Positions 15,691-31,861 of a stretch of 31,861 nucleotides of DNA are shown here, piece by piece (position 1 is the first letter of the stretch; every line of letters begins with the position of its first letter). The stretch is from a virus. The notes beneath the pieces were generated by a model, which searched no databases, was not told where the DNA came from, and worked only from the letters and a program-made list of their open reading frames with translations. The stretch lies in IMG/VR virus record IMGVR_UViG_3300017776_002911, positions 1 through 31,861 of that record; one strand, 5' to 3'. A program made the translations under genes and the position numbers.

Positions 15691-15708
15691 GCCATCAACA
15701 CTTCGCCT
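15691..15708 (-). repeat. 18-base box, copy B
   Basis: GCCATCAACACTTCGCCT, identical to 15762-15779. On the leftward strand it ends in TTGATGGC; a TAATAT lies 15 bases beyond TTGATG, a poor but possible promoter. Confidence 0.7.
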
Positions 15709-15739
15709 CCTGTCCTCCCCCTTTATTAGTAAATAATAA

Positions 15740-15769
15740 ATTATAAAGTTAAATTAATATCGCCATCAA
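15740..15769 (-). promoter_or_regulatory. Candidate leftward promoter
   Basis: TTGATG (15769-15764), 18-base spacer, perfect TATAAT (15745-15740) on the leftward strand. The -35 box lies in the 18-base repeated box. It would drive the small-gene block after the terminator of the hub transcript. Confidence 0.45.
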
Positions 15770-15779
15770 CACTTCGCCT
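15762..15779 (-). repeat. 18-base box, copy A
   Basis: GCCATCAACACTTCGCCT, identical to 15691-15708 and 71 bases away. In the leftward direction its TTGATG serves as the -35 box of the candidate promoter at 15740-15769. Confidence 0.7.
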
Positions 15780-15886
15780 TAAAGTACAACAACTTAATTA
15801 GTTAAACTTATTAATTAACTTGCGAAGCATAATAAGATAATGTGAGGTGGTTGGTCACCATTATTTAGAACAATTTATTTATTTTT

Positions 15887-15913
15887 ACCCTCTAGAAATT
15901 CAGAGGGTTTTTT
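15887..15913 (+). terminator. Intrinsic terminator, rightward
   Basis: ACCCTCT and AGAGGGT make a perfect 7-bp stem with an 8-base loop, followed by a T-run to 15913. There is no rightward gene just upstream in the window, so it would block antisense read-through into the hub. Confidence 0.7.
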
Positions 15914-15934
15914 AGGTTTGGTTGGCTCTGGGAT

Positions 15935-15964
15935 AAAAAAAACCCTCTGAATTTCTCCAGAGGG
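15935..15964 (-). terminator. Intrinsic terminator, leftward
   Basis: On the leftward strand, CCCTCTG (15964-15958) and CAGAGGG (15949-15943) form a 7-bp stem with an 8-base loop followed by eight T residues. It lies 13 bases after the 92-residue gene and probably ends the hub transcript. It shares most of its sequence, inverted, with the rightward terminator. Confidence 0.85.
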
Positions 15965-15977
15965 CTTTGAAGCTAAT

Positions 15978-16256
15978 TTATTTAGGGTTAGCTTTAAGAT
16001 ATAACTTCCTAGCATCTTCATATACTTTAGGAAGTTTCTTAATAGCTTTATCAAACAATAAATTAGCTTTCTCCTTAGTGAATAAGTTAGCTTTACCAAC
16101 TTTTTTATCTCTAAAGGAATTCAAAGTTGACCATACTTGTCTCTCAAGGGCAAAGTTTTTCTTACCTTTGACCCAAGAGAACTTATTAGATAAGGCTTTG
16201 AGTTGGGCATCAGTTGCCAAATCATTCGGGTTTTTAATTACATACTTTGTAGACAT
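15978..16256 (-). CDS. Small basic protein (92 aa), intact copy of a duplicated gene
   Basis: A lysine-rich helical protein (MSTKYVIKNPNDLATDAQLK, then FALERQVWSTLNSFRDKKVG and ARKLYLKANPK). Its ATG overlaps the upstream stop as TAATG and an intrinsic terminator follows. No family was recognised. A decayed inverted copy lies at about 16687-16922, with the start codon lost and several frame breaks, so this left copy is the functional one. The basic charge leaves nucleic-acid binding possible. Confidence 0.75.
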   Translation of the reverse strand: MSTKYVIKNPNDLATDAQLKALSNKFSWVKGKKNFALERQVWSTLNSFRDKKVGKANLFTKEKANLLFDKAIKKLPKVYEDARKLYLKANPK

Positions 16257-16426
16257 TATTTTACCTCCTGTAGGTAGTTTGATAAAGCATTTTGAAACTC
16301 TTTATCATTCGAAGTGACAAAGAGAACTTCAGGTAATAACGATTTCACAACCTCAAGAGCTTGTGTTTTAGATACAGTTTCAACAGCTGAATGAGCTGTA
16401 TGAATATGCGTAATGCATTGTGCCAT
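16256..16426 (-). CDS. Small protein (56 aa), intact copy of a duplicated gene
   Basis: MAQCITHIHTAHSAVETVSK followed by TQALEVVKSLLPEVLFVTSN. AAAAGGAGG lies just before the ATG and the stop overlaps the next start as TAATG. A decayed inverted copy with conserved ribosome site and ATG lies at 16544 onward on the other strand. No family was recognised. It is the first intact gene leftward from the divergent promoter pair. Confidence 0.65.
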   Translation of the reverse strand: MAQCITHIHTAHSAVETVSKTQALEVVKSLLPEVLFVTSNDKEFQNALSNYLQEVK

Positions 16427-16467
16427 AATTGCCTCCTTTTAAGTTTTAATGACGGATAAAGCTATTT

Positions 16468-16494
16468 ACATCTCTGAATACTTGGAAGAGATGT
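16468..16494. repeat. Perfect centre of the inverted duplication
   Basis: ACATCTCT (16468-16475) and AGAGATGT (16487-16494) form a perfect palindrome around 11 bases. The similarity of the two arms begins here and runs outward in both directions. Confidence 0.8.
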
Positions 16495-16543
16495 GTTAAA
16501 ATACTTTAGGAGACATTTAAAACATTAAAAGGAGAATGCAATT

Positions 16544-16685
16544 ATGAGGACGATGTGTTGCCATATTCATAGCTCATTCAGGTGGGGAAACTTCTAAAAT
16601 GCAACTCTGGTGTGCATCGTTATCTGAAGTTCTTTGTCACTTAGAAATAAGGGCTTTCAAAATGCATCAAACTAACACAGGATAA
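16544..16685 (+). pseudogene. Decayed inverted copy of the 56-residue gene
   Basis: Ribosome site GGAG (16531-16534) and ATG (16544) are conserved relative to the intact gene, and the segments CATATTCATA, GCTCATTCAG, CTGAAGTTCT, TTTGTCACTT and TTTCAAAATGC align in order. Indels break the frame: only 17 residues (MRTMCCHIHSSFRWGNF) can be read before a stop at 16595-16597. Confidence 0.75.
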
Positions 16686-16686
16686 A

Positions 16687-16922
16687 AGACCTACAAAGTA
16701 TTATTTAAAACCTTGATTTCAACTGTGGTCAACCCTGCCTTCTTAGTTCTCTTGGCAAAGGTGAAGACTTTCCAGAGAGACAAGTACAACTTTGAAGCCT
16801 GTGATAAATAAGATAAAGGTAACTCACTAAGGAGGAAACTTTAGAAGCTTTGATGAATATTCTGTAACTTAATAACCTATATAGATGCTAGGAAGTCATA
16901 AACTAGTTGCTAACATCTACAT
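16687..16922 (+). pseudogene. Decayed inverted copy of the 92-residue gene
   Basis: Aligns with the intact gene from CTACAAAGTAT to the end (TAAGTTCTCTTGG-like, GAGAGACAAGTA, CACTAAGGAG, GATGCTAGGAAGT). The start codon has become AAGACC and the frame has several stops and shifts, so no protein of the family can be made. Confidence 0.75.
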
Positions 16923-17170
16923 AAGCTTCAAAGTTTCTGGGGTTAAATTGTCTAGGGGTAGGCAGGTGACCACCCCACCCACCGTGTATATATATGTAAT
17001 GGTCGCACATAAATAGCTAAAAGTACTGTAAACCAGCCGGACAATAAAGTTTATAAATTATATTAAAGCAGTATTTAATTTTTGGCACCCTATGGGGTTT
17101 GGTAGGTCTCTAAAGACTATATAAAGTTGGTGGTTATCTAGGTATTCAACCGACCCAACCAGTAACCTTC

Positions 17171-17199
17171 ATTATATAGTTGAGATTAAGATTTGTCAA
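17171..17199 (-). promoter_or_regulatory. Leftward perfect-consensus sigma70 promoter
   Basis: On the leftward strand TTGACA (17199-17194), exactly 17 bases, TATAAT (17176-17171). Predicted start near 17164. The transcript would cross the decayed right arm antisense, then the intact two genes, and end at the terminator at 15964-15935. Confidence 0.85.
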
Positions 17200-17214
17200 G
17201 CTTTTTCTTGACAA
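17193..17214. promoter_or_regulatory. 8-bp palindrome linking divergent -35 boxes (probable operator)
   Basis: TTGTCAAG (17193-17200) and CTTGACAA (17207-17214) are perfect inverted repeats separated by six bases. Each arm contains the -35 box of one of the two opposed promoters, so one dimeric regulator, or one bound RNA polymerase, could block both or force a choice. Confidence 0.75.
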
Positions 17215-17236
17215 TGATTAAATCTATCCCTATAAT
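17208..17236 (+). promoter_or_regulatory. Rightward perfect-consensus sigma70 promoter (late)
   Basis: TTGACA (17208-17213), exactly 17 bases, TATAAT (17231-17236). Transcription should start at about 17243-17244, the ATG of the small terminase gene, giving a message with no leader and no Shine-Dalgarno site. Confidence 0.88.
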
Positions 17237-28906: not shown

Positions 28907-31861
28907 ATGGCAGGATATATTCGACAAAGTACATTTAGTGATGGCGATACCATTACCGCAGCATTATTCAATAATGAATATGACCAGTTATTAACAGTAT
29001 TTAGTAATACTTCAGGACACAAACACGATGGTACAGCTGCTGAAGGTCCAGTCATAGGTTTAATAGGTGATGCTGGAGTAGTAACACCCCTCAACAAAGT
29101 CTTAATAGATACTATTAATGACCACATAGAATTTTGGATAGATGATTCAAGTAGTTCAGTACAACAACTTTATATTGCAAACGGTGCAATAGTTCCTACT
29201 TTAACTAATGATATAGATTTAGGTACTTCTTCTCTACAATTTAAAGATTTATATATAGACGGCACAGCTAACATAGATAGCTTAGTAGCCGACACTGCAG
29301 ATATTAATGGTGGCTCAATAGACGGTGTAGTCATTGGAGCTAACTCAGCAGCAGCCGGTACCTTTACGACAGTAACTACGACAAGCAACGTTGTTGTCGG
29401 TGGTAACCTAACTGTCTCTGGCACAACAACTACAGTCAACAGTAACGAAGTTAATATCGGTGATAACATCATTGTCCTTAATTCAGATGAGACAGGAACA
29501 CCATCACAGAATGGTGGGATTGAAATAGAACGAGGTACGTCAACTAATGTCTCACTACTATGGAATGAAACTAATGACTATTGGACATTTGGTAGTAACC
29601 ACCTAAACTTCCCAGACAACTCCAAAGCCTACTTTGGTACTGGTAATGATTTAGAGATTTATCACGATGGTAGTCATAGTAGATTAAAAGAAACAGGCAC
29701 AGGTAATTTTTATTTTGATGTTTCAAATTCTTTATTTATAAGAAGAAATGATACATCTGCATTGATGGCATCATTTGAAACAGGTACTGCTAAATTATAT
29801 TTTGACAACTCTTTAAAACTAACCACAGCTAGTGGTGGAGTTACTATCACAGGCACAGCAACAGCAACAGCTTTTTCAGGACCTTTAACAGGTAATGTCA
29901 CAGGAGATGTGACTGGTAATGTTTCAGGAAATCTAACAGGCTCTGTTTTAACTGCAGCCCAAACAAATATCACAAGTCTTGGTACTCTATCAAGCTTAGC
30001 AGTCTCTGGTGCAATCACAGCTTCAAGTACTATTGCAAGTAACAATATAACCATAACAGACGATGTGCCAAAAATTACTTTTACTGATAGTGACACTAGC
30101 ACTTCTGCAAGTATTTCTTCAAACAGCAGTCATTTAACATATACCACAGCTGCAGCAAGTAGAGACCATATATTCAAACAAGACACAACAGAACGCATGA
30201 GATTAACTGATGTGGGTCTTGGTATTGGAACTACTTCGCCAAGTGAAATACTTCATTTAACACACGCAACAAGTAGTAGGGCAAGATTTGTTAGCACTGA
30301 TGGTGCTAATAGAAGCATGTTGGTGGGAGTTAATTCATCTGACGGTGGTGAAGTTAGAGTTGCAACAGCTCATGGTTTAAAGTTTTACACAAATGATGTT
30401 GAAAGAATGTCAATAGCTTCTGGTGGTGATGTTACTATAGCAAATAATCTAACAGTCACCGGTAACGCAACTATCAACGGTAATCTAACCTTTGGTAATG
30501 CTAATACCGACACAGTTTCTTTCGGAGCTGATATAGATTCAAACATTATACCAGACGATGACAATACTTATGACCTCGGCAGTTCTTCACAGGAATGGAA
30601 AGACTTATACATAGATGGTGTGGTATATGCCGACCAAATAGACCTAGGCGACAACGAAAAGATTAGACTAGGTGCTAGTCAAGATTTAGAAATATATCAC
30701 GATGGGTCTAATAGTTATATCTGGGAAAAAGGTACAGGTAACTTAATAGTTCGTGGTACTGAATTTAGACTGCAAGATAGCTCTGCTAATACAATGCTAA
30801 TTGCAAATTCAGGTGGTGGTGTTGGTGTTTATCATAATGCATCACAAAAACTAGCCACAACCTCAACAGGTATAGATGTTACTGGTGCATTAGCAGTCAA
30901 TTCAGGCACAACAGACACAGCAGCAACTTTTACTAGTTCAGATGCAGCAGTAGCAGTAAACTTTGTAGCTTCTGATAATTCTATGCAGATAGCCACATCA
31001 GGCACAGATGGGATTATAAAAAATAATGGAGCTGGTAACTTTAGGTTGTTCAATAATGGTGCTGAAAGACTACGAATAGACAGCTCAGGCAACGTCGGCA
31101 TCGGAACGAGTTCGCCAAGTCGTAAATTACACATTAATGGTGGCACAGCAAACTTTGTTGCTAAATTTGAATCAACTGATGGTATAGGTGGTATTTTAGT
31201 TGCCGATAACTCTACAACTGTTGACTTAGCTGTAGCAGCAGAAGGTAATAATTTATCTTTCTATAACAACTCTGAACGCATGAGAATAGCCAGCGATGGT
31301 TCTTTATTTTTAAATCACACTAATAGTTGGGAAAGTCTAGGAACTATTGTTCTTAAACAAAAAGCTGATGACAGAGGTCTTGGTATTGTTGATGATGCAG
31401 GGCAAAATGCATTTCAAATTATAAATAATGGCTCTGTTGCAGGTATAAAATATAATGTAGATAATCCTATTACATTTTCACAAAGCTCTGGCGAGAGAAT
31501 GCGTATCAATGGTATAGGCAACGTCGGCATCGGAACAAGTTCGCCAAGTGCTAATCTTCATGTTTTATCTTCAGGTAATGGTGAAATAGAAGTAGAAAGA
31601 GCTAGTGGTGCTTTGATTAATTTACAAGCACAATCTGCTAGAGGTGTTATAGGCACAGACTCAAACCATGAACTACAATTCAAAACTAATAGTTCCAGCA
31701 GAATGACCATTAATACCTCAGGCAACGTCGGCATCGGCACGAGTTCGCCAAGTGAGAAACTTCATATTGTAGATACAAGTAATCCAGCATCAACTACAGG
31801 TTCAGTAATCATAGAAGGTCGTAGAGATGGTACTGCTAACTTAATGGAATTAAGAGCAAGA
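28907..31861 (+). CDS. Tail fibre protein, 3' partial (985 residues visible)
   Basis: The ATG at 28907 has CAGGAGA upstream and the frame stays open to the window edge. The N-terminal part (MAGYIRQSTFSDGDTITAAL) would bind the tail. The rest is repetitive: LQFKDLYIDG and QEWKDLYIDG; two LEIYHDGS units (about 29655 and 30690); and four G(N/L)(V)GIGT-SPS units, a fibre motif known from many marine phages. The last three are encoded by nearly identical 33-base DNA stretches. It is the likely receptor-binding protein. Confidence 0.9.
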   Translation, partial: MAGYIRQSTFSDGDTITAALFNNEYDQLLTVFSNTSGHKHDGTAAEGPVIGLIGDAGVVTPLNKVLIDTINDHIEFWIDDSSSSVQQLYIANGAIVPTLTNDIDLGTSSLQFKDLYIDGTANIDSLVADTADINGGSIDGVVIGANSAAAGTFTTVTTTSNVVVGGNLTVSGTTTTVNSNEVNIGDNIIVLNSDETGTPSQNGGIEIERGTSTNVSLLWNETNDYWTFGSNHLNFPDNSKAYFGTGNDLEIYHDGSHSRLKETGTGNFYFDVSNSLFIRRNDTSALMASFETGTAKLYFDNSLKLTTASGGVTITGTATATAFSGPLTGNVTGDVTGNVSGNLTGSVLTAAQTNITSLGTLSSLAVSGAITASSTIASNNITITDDVPKITFTDSDTSTSASISSNSSHLTYTTAAASRDHIFKQDTTERMRLTDVGLGIGTTSPSEILHLTHATSSRARFVSTDGANRSMLVGVNSSDGGEVRVATAHGLKFYTNDVERMSIASGGDVTIANNLTVTGNATINGNLTFGNANTDTVSFGADIDSNIIPDDDNTYDLGSSSQEWKDLYIDGVVYADQIDLGDNEKIRLGASQDLEIYHDGSNSYIWEKGTGNLIVRGTEFRLQDSSANTMLIANSGGGVGVYHNASQKLATTSTGIDVTGALAVNSGTTDTAATFTSSDAAVAVNFVASDNSMQIATSGTDGIIKNNGAGNFRLFNNGAERLRIDSSGNVGIGTSSPSRKLHINGGTANFVAKFESTDGIGGILVADNSTTVDLAVAAEGNNLSFYNNSERMRIASDGSLFLNHTNSWESLGTIVLKQKADDRGLGIVDDAGQNAFQIINNGSVAGIKYNVDNPITFSQSSGERMRINGIGNVGIGTSSPSANLHVLSSGNGEIEVERASGALINLQAQSARGVIGTDSNHELQFKTNSSSRMTINTSGNVGIGTSSPSEKLHIVDTSNPASTTGSVIIEGRRDGTANLMELRAR
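31088..31120 (+). repeat. Fibre DNA repeat, copy 1
   Basis: Encodes GNVGIGTSSPS; 33 bases nearly identical to 31517-31549 and 31721-31753, and GC-rich compared with the surroundings. Confidence 0.85.
31517..31549 (+). repeat. Fibre DNA repeat, copy 2
   Basis: Same 33-base repeat with one base different (ACAAGT for ACGAGT). Confidence 0.85.
31721..31753 (+). repeat. Fibre DNA repeat, copy 3
   Basis: Same 33-base repeat with one base different from copy 1 (GGCACG for GGAACG). A more diverged protein-level copy is at about 30215-30244 (GLGIGTTSPS). Confidence 0.85.

Follow-up and report, generated by a model that had tools for sequence, protein, structure and literature searches.

Two small genes, here called A and B, lie at an early/late hub in an uncultured viral genome record of 31,861 nucleotides (IMGVR_UViG_3300017776_002911), which is referred to as a whole as the window. 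Both are read leftwards, and both open reading frames are whole and overlap by one base, which agrees with the original prediction that the pair is intact and coupled. The two genes occupy one arm of a giant imperfect inverted repeat, the other arm of which is non-coding (Table 1). The TerL protein of the window is closest to that of phage HTVC115P (64% over 86%), and further matches were found for the portal/head-tail adaptor, the major head protein, the primase-helicase and the DNA polymerase. Judged by these related terminase, portal, head and replication genes, the window belongs to the HMO-2011-type phages, and the phages that carry the cassette are an uncultured marine group related to phages infecting SAR11 bacteria. 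The record is probably a fragment, because isolates measure 53-56 kb.

Table 1. Features at the hub of the window (positions are those of the whole stretch)
Feature	Position	Strand	Remarks
Two copies of GCCATCAACACTTCGCCT	15691..15779		15691-15708 and 15762-15779
Whole hairpin cassette, clamp to clamp	15842..16985	+	From alignment, RNAfold and the right swap boundary (16952-16954) between near-identical phages
Left base clamp GGTGGTTGGTCACC	15846..15859	+	
Intrinsic terminator	15939..15968	-	Right after gene B
Left (coding) arm	15950..16475	-	
Gene B, 92 aa	15978..16256	-	Predicted four helices, pLDDT 82
Gene A, 56 aa	16256..16426	-	Predicted beta-beta-alpha-beta-alpha, pLDDT 85.5
Apical loop	16476..16486		Between two perfect 8-nt repeats
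Right "shadow" arm	16487..16949		Non-coding, imperfect complement of left arm
Conserved right-base motif	16963..17002	+	Also in relatives without the inverted repeat
Right base clamp GGTGACCACCCCACC	16965..16979	+	
P_L	17171..17199	-	Perfect TTGACA-17-TATAAT, into the hairpin
P_R	17208..17236	+	Perfect TTGACA-17-TATAAT, towards the terminase genes

The inverted duplication that had been predicted is real. Local alignment of 15950-16475 with the reverse complement of 16949-16487 gave 381 identities, 68 mismatches and about 41 gap events, so that the arms do differ by both substitutions and indels, and the alignment score was 371, whereas 300 dinucleotide shuffles averaged 35.5 and reached 59 at most; similarity no better than that of shuffled sequence, the outcome named beforehand as speaking against the duplication, did not occur. 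The arms meet at their centre as described, in the perfect repeats ACATCTCT (16468-16475) and AGAGATGT (16487-16494), which are separated by a spacer of 11 nt. In the RNAfold prediction, the cassette contains 402 long-range pairs, every one of them across the centre and the outermost being 15842:16982, and the fold of the + strand has z = -29, that of the - strand z = -19. At each bulge the right arm is mostly 1-4 nt shorter than the left. No other long inverted repeat of that size is present in the window or in nine long relatives.

Coding capacity is confined to the left arm. The loci encode homologous A and B proteins throughout (A about 56-64 aa, B about 85-109 aa), and the A proteins diverge to about 20% identity. 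In profile searches, 60 of the 65 left arms contained a complete A and 60 a complete B, whereas none of the 65 right arms contained either; relatives keep no intact right-arm genes but a non-coding arm instead, and the right arm of the window itself has no such open reading frame. Neither A nor B matched Pfam, PHROGs gave only chance-level and unconvincing matches to them, and their predicted structures found no PDB fold with an E-value below 1. Considered as possible parts of a type I or III toxin-antitoxin system, A and B showed no related toxin family in these searches. The INPHARED isolates yielded no match at the DNA level and none to either protein, and B was encoded in none of 138 candidate stretches of bacterial genomes. 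Rfam returned 18 weak matches, none reaching the gathering score.

Two observations were made elsewhere in the window. At the contig edge (80-1351, + strand) lies a gene whose product combines a CHASE2 with an adenylate/guanylate cyclase catalytic domain (Pfam PF05226 and PF00211). It is unusual for a phage and possibly host-derived, and the ribonucleotide reductase genes next to it are on the other strand. At 29000-31800, where the structural gene region ends, several long open frames run along the opposite, - strand; a repetitive gene on the + strand probably accounts for them as its shadow ORFs.

The repeat is not peculiar to the window. A search with B yielded 66 loci, 61 of which have at least 1.2 kb upstream; among these, the repeat was recovered by BLAST in 56 and by Smith-Waterman alignment in the remaining five. 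Many different giant imperfect inverted repeats lie upstream of the terminase in relatives, with arms 64-76% identical by BLAST. In total, a hairpin occupies the same hub in at least 65 loci, each locus having its own, and across the group the hairpin that one strand is able to form spans about 1.1 to 1.5 kilobases. The hairpins divide into two classes, the window belonging to class II. Watson-Crick pairs per base of the longer arm amount to 0.65-0.78 in all 65 hairpins, and none is near-perfect.

The repeat was at first suspected to come from a read that folded back and was noisy on its second pass, because most differences between the arms are short deletions in the right arm. This explanation, like any other sequencing or assembly artefact, is refuted and retains practically no probability: the same right arm is present in contig L007, which comes from a different sample, within a stretch that is 92% identical with only a few single-base gaps, and dozens of different hairpins are found at the same locus. 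The original prediction was thus correct in arguing that the repeat is not an assembly mirror artefact, now confirmed by an independent contig, and wrong in calling one arm decayed, as the imperfect right arm recurs nearly free of indels in L007. The idea of a decayed relic of a rearrangement is likewise not supported; the repeat may nevertheless have originated as a relic, given that the distant relatives L022 and L032 have + strand A-B homologues and no repeat. Two apparent patterns were set aside. Right-arm indels seemed far more frequent than indels between phages, a difference that weakened to 0.12 against 0.08 per substitution under a stricter alignment. Class II helices seemed not to exceed about 16 bp, against 27 bp in class I, and since the shortfall of long helices relative to a geometric model was moderate, it is not relied upon.

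Within a phage, the right arm follows its own left arm. The arm-to-arm score within a phage is 0.31-0.56 per base, whereas between distant phages left arms fall to 0.07 and right arms to 0.04 per base, which is the shuffled level. Alignments A2 and A3 proved too diverse to be searched for patterns, and the closer set A4 took their place. In 13 close hairpin pairs, 81 two-sided substitutions keep a Watson-Crick pair and 24 do not, compared with 18 doubles of any kind expected under independence, although the sequences are related and the counts are therefore not independent. The base clamp likewise covaries on both sides (GGTATGGTC, GGAGTGGTC, GGAGTGGGC, GGCATGGTC). Because the arms track each other within a phage and pair-preserving doubles far outnumber those expected, arm complementarity is maintained.

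Such tracking need not be the work of selection alone. In PMC8604942 and PMC8794818, template switching is described as homogenizing the arms of inverted repeats and maintaining RNA hairpins; among the 81 compensating changes are 34 transversions, some of the compensated pairs being clustered, which suggests conversion by template switching alongside selection. A rival explanation of this kind is a neutral relic, i.e., an old inverted duplication whose arms are alike only through DNA-polymerase template switching at imperfect palindromes. We regard a purely neutral origin of the likeness as improbable. About 500 bp of useless DNA would be expected to be lost, yet essentially every locus with A-B has retained the arm over a divergence that brings A to about 20% identity, and no young, near-perfect repeat is found among the hairpins; both points argue against the right arm being a neutral leftover. 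Neutral conversion also does not produce the 9:1 polarity of wobble pairs described below. The suggestion that the arm may have a non-coding job thus gains support from at least 65 retained self-complementary non-coding arms, in which compensating changes follow the left arm, and A-B with its mirror copy appears to be a genetic device that is being maintained, not a duplicate in decay.

The cassette is also a swappable module, as whole cassettes differ between otherwise near-identical phages. For example, the terminase genes of the window and L021 show a dS of 0.00 over 417 codons, yet the dN of A and B is at least 0.4. From 16952 rightwards, the window matches L006 at 97.9% identity, and over most early genes at 87-95%, whereas the two have nothing in common between 15780 and 16952. 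In L006 and L008, the A-B genes are distant relatives and the repeat is down to some 70-90 nt, located where gene A begins. In L022 (5844-6331) and L032 (3434-3939), distant A-B homologues lie on the + strand in the position of the right arm without an inverted repeat; both phages keep the hub promoters, and L022 also keeps the right-base motif. L163, L167 and L199, which were found by that motif, have neither A-B nor a large repeat. The exchange of cassettes between near-identical marine phages suggests diversifying selection, as might arise from phage-phage or phage-host conflict.

The flanks of the hairpin carry several conserved signals. Of the 30 relatives scanned, most have the back-to-back pair P_L/P_R with no more than a single mismatch, and all 30 have P_L. 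Elements similar to the terminator of the window were seen by eye at the left base of several relatives. As read from these signals, a P_L transcript would cross the right arm into A-B and end at the terminator. In the left flank, a consensus search for sigma-70-like promoters on the + strand brought up none that stands out (mean 3.26 mismatches, compared with 3.00 in shuffled sequence). The right-base motif, GGCAGG.GACCA..CCC....CC followed by TATATAT, is shared by the window, L006, L008, L022 and L079 and occurs in 48 contigs. Iteron-like repeats of the CCCTCAACCAACCGAC type are present in the left flanks of the hairpins of the window, L053, L056 and L064, and some left flanks contain a DnaA-box-like TGTGGATAA; these elements may mark a replication origin beside the hub. 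Apical mini-hairpins with C-GNA-G loops (ACGCAGT, ACGAAGT, GCGTAGC) occur in L109-L150 (e.g., L129:3661-3776), and mini-hairpins of this type are exceptionally stable in single-stranded DNA.

The promoter arrangement brings in the main rival of the reading that we favour, namely that only the P_L transcript matters and that the shadow, as a 5' leader, folds onto A-B and limits translation until ribosomes or a factor open it. Such a self-repressing leader would fit the perfect consensus P_L at the same site in nearly all of the 30 relatives, the terminator after B, the - strand fold z of -19, and the reduced repeat of L006 and L008, which covers the start of gene A. Its difficulty is that the mismatches are polarized against pairing of the - strand, the opposite of what it predicts, unless selection tunes the hairpin to be weak; on balance, we think it unlikely, while taking it seriously.

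This polarity is strong in class I, where 815 mismatches are G-U on the + strand, compared with 175 that would be G-U on the - strand (A-C on the + strand). After arm composition and transitions were modelled, the class I G-U term had p = 5e-6, a value that is approximate as the rows are related. Over the A-B coding part of class I, the numbers are 578 G-U pairs on the + strand and 66 on the - strand, and because mismatches are polarized in this way, the + strand pairs better. Skews at four-fold sites reveal no matching excess of G+T on the + strand and do not explain the polarity. The + strand fold is the more stable in 19 of 21 cases, and at an apical three-way junction that many hairpins, those of class II among them, have in common, 29 cells are of the G-U type on the + strand and one is of the A-C type. 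The window, a class II member, is weakly polarized (21 G-U against 11 A-C), the wobble polarity term for class II is not significant, and class II arms, including those of the window, are bulged and not wobble-rich. Taken together, the compensatory doubles and the wobble polarity of the + strand indicate that complementarity is conserved as RNA structure. The main tension lies here: the promoters point left, whereas the wobble pairs say that the rightward RNA pairs better. The G-U excess could also reflect selection against pairing of the - strand mRNA alone.

Polarity also bears on a DNA-level element, that is, a cruciform or single-stranded DNA hairpin at a replication or packaging hub in which A-B is merely located in one arm. 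The hub position, the iteron-like repeats and DnaA-box-like elements, and the stable C-GNA-G mini-hairpins are all in keeping with such an element, and a + strand single-stranded DNA hairpin would likewise tolerate G-T better than A-C. A double-stranded cruciform, however, has no strand preference, whereas the mismatches do, and phages without the repeat retain the same hub promoters and right-base motif. We consider this explanation rather improbable.

Our leading reading, held tentatively and from sequence comparison, is that the repeat is a selected RNA-level device, in which the + strand forms a giant hairpin whose 5' arm, antisense to A-B, is masked in cis by the 3' shadow arm. The cassette at the early/late hub of these HMO-2011-related phages consists of the leftward A-B genes and a non-coding mirrored shadow, which would be kept for pairing. 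Transcription from P_L would produce the A-B mRNA, in which the shadow arm would form a long 5' leader, while some rightward transcription through the hub would yield a + strand RNA with its 5' half antisense to A-B. The shadow arm, being transcribed next in the same RNA, would fold onto the antisense half and mask it, so that sense and antisense transcription might coexist. The choice of wobble pairs would keep the + strand paired, while A-C mismatches would stop the A-B mRNA from folding fully and leave A-B translatable; the net role may be control of A-B expression. We count L022 and L032, whose A-B homologues lie on the + strand and lack the repeat, in favour of this model.

In broader terms, the cassette may be an undescribed kind of regulation, in which an operon is permanently paired with a non-coding shadow, the + strand hairpin masks its antisense in cis, and the whole is exchanged as a hypervariable module; we put this forward somewhat more guardedly still. 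Compact phage genomes normally lose spare DNA and long inverted repeats, and here a complementary, non-coding operon copy of about 500 bp is maintained over the long term. Strand-polarized wobble pairs record which strand must fold. If the RNA reading is true, the hairpin would be unusually long for a base-paired RNA element of bacteria or phages, and it would reconcile opposing transcription in a new way.

No prior description of the cassette was found in the open-access literature, and the paper on the HMO-2011 group does not mention a hairpin, inverted repeat or non-coding element. A diversity-generating retroelement, which has direct template and variable repeats with adenine-specific changes and a reverse transcriptase, was considered and rejected: the repeat is inverted, its arms differ by numerous indels and by substitutions of every type, and the ORFs searched near the hub included no reverse transcriptase. 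Any claim of novelty covers the architecture, the mechanism being a proposal. In the isolates HTVC115P, HTVC103P and HMO-2011, as in the window, the terminase genes diverge from the early genes (PMC9038755). Unlike in the window, the hub of the HMO-2011-type isolates checked has no long inverted repeat, and no A or B homologue was found in them. The cassette resembles cis-antisense RNA regulators in that the expected + strand product fully overlaps, and is antisense to, a small operon; it differs from them in that the antisense arm runs on covalently into an imperfect, sense-like copy, which is maintained and pairs with this arm. To our knowledge, no antisense system with such a covalently attached copy is known. 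In eukaryotes, hairpin RNAs and miRNA genes can originate when an inverted copy of a coding gene gives rise to a long imperfect fold-back. The cassette shares both the inverted copy and the long imperfect fold-back with this type of origin, but its host is a bacterium without Dicer/Argonaute silencing, and here one of the two hairpin arms is the coding original itself. Finally, long inverted repeats that overlap protein-coding sequence are also described, in PMC6649704, for Nematomorpha mitochondria, where the palindromes are perfect, up to 284 bp long and inside genes, with both arms encoding protein; the repeat of the window, by contrast, is about 500 bp long and imperfect, and one of its arms is non-coding.
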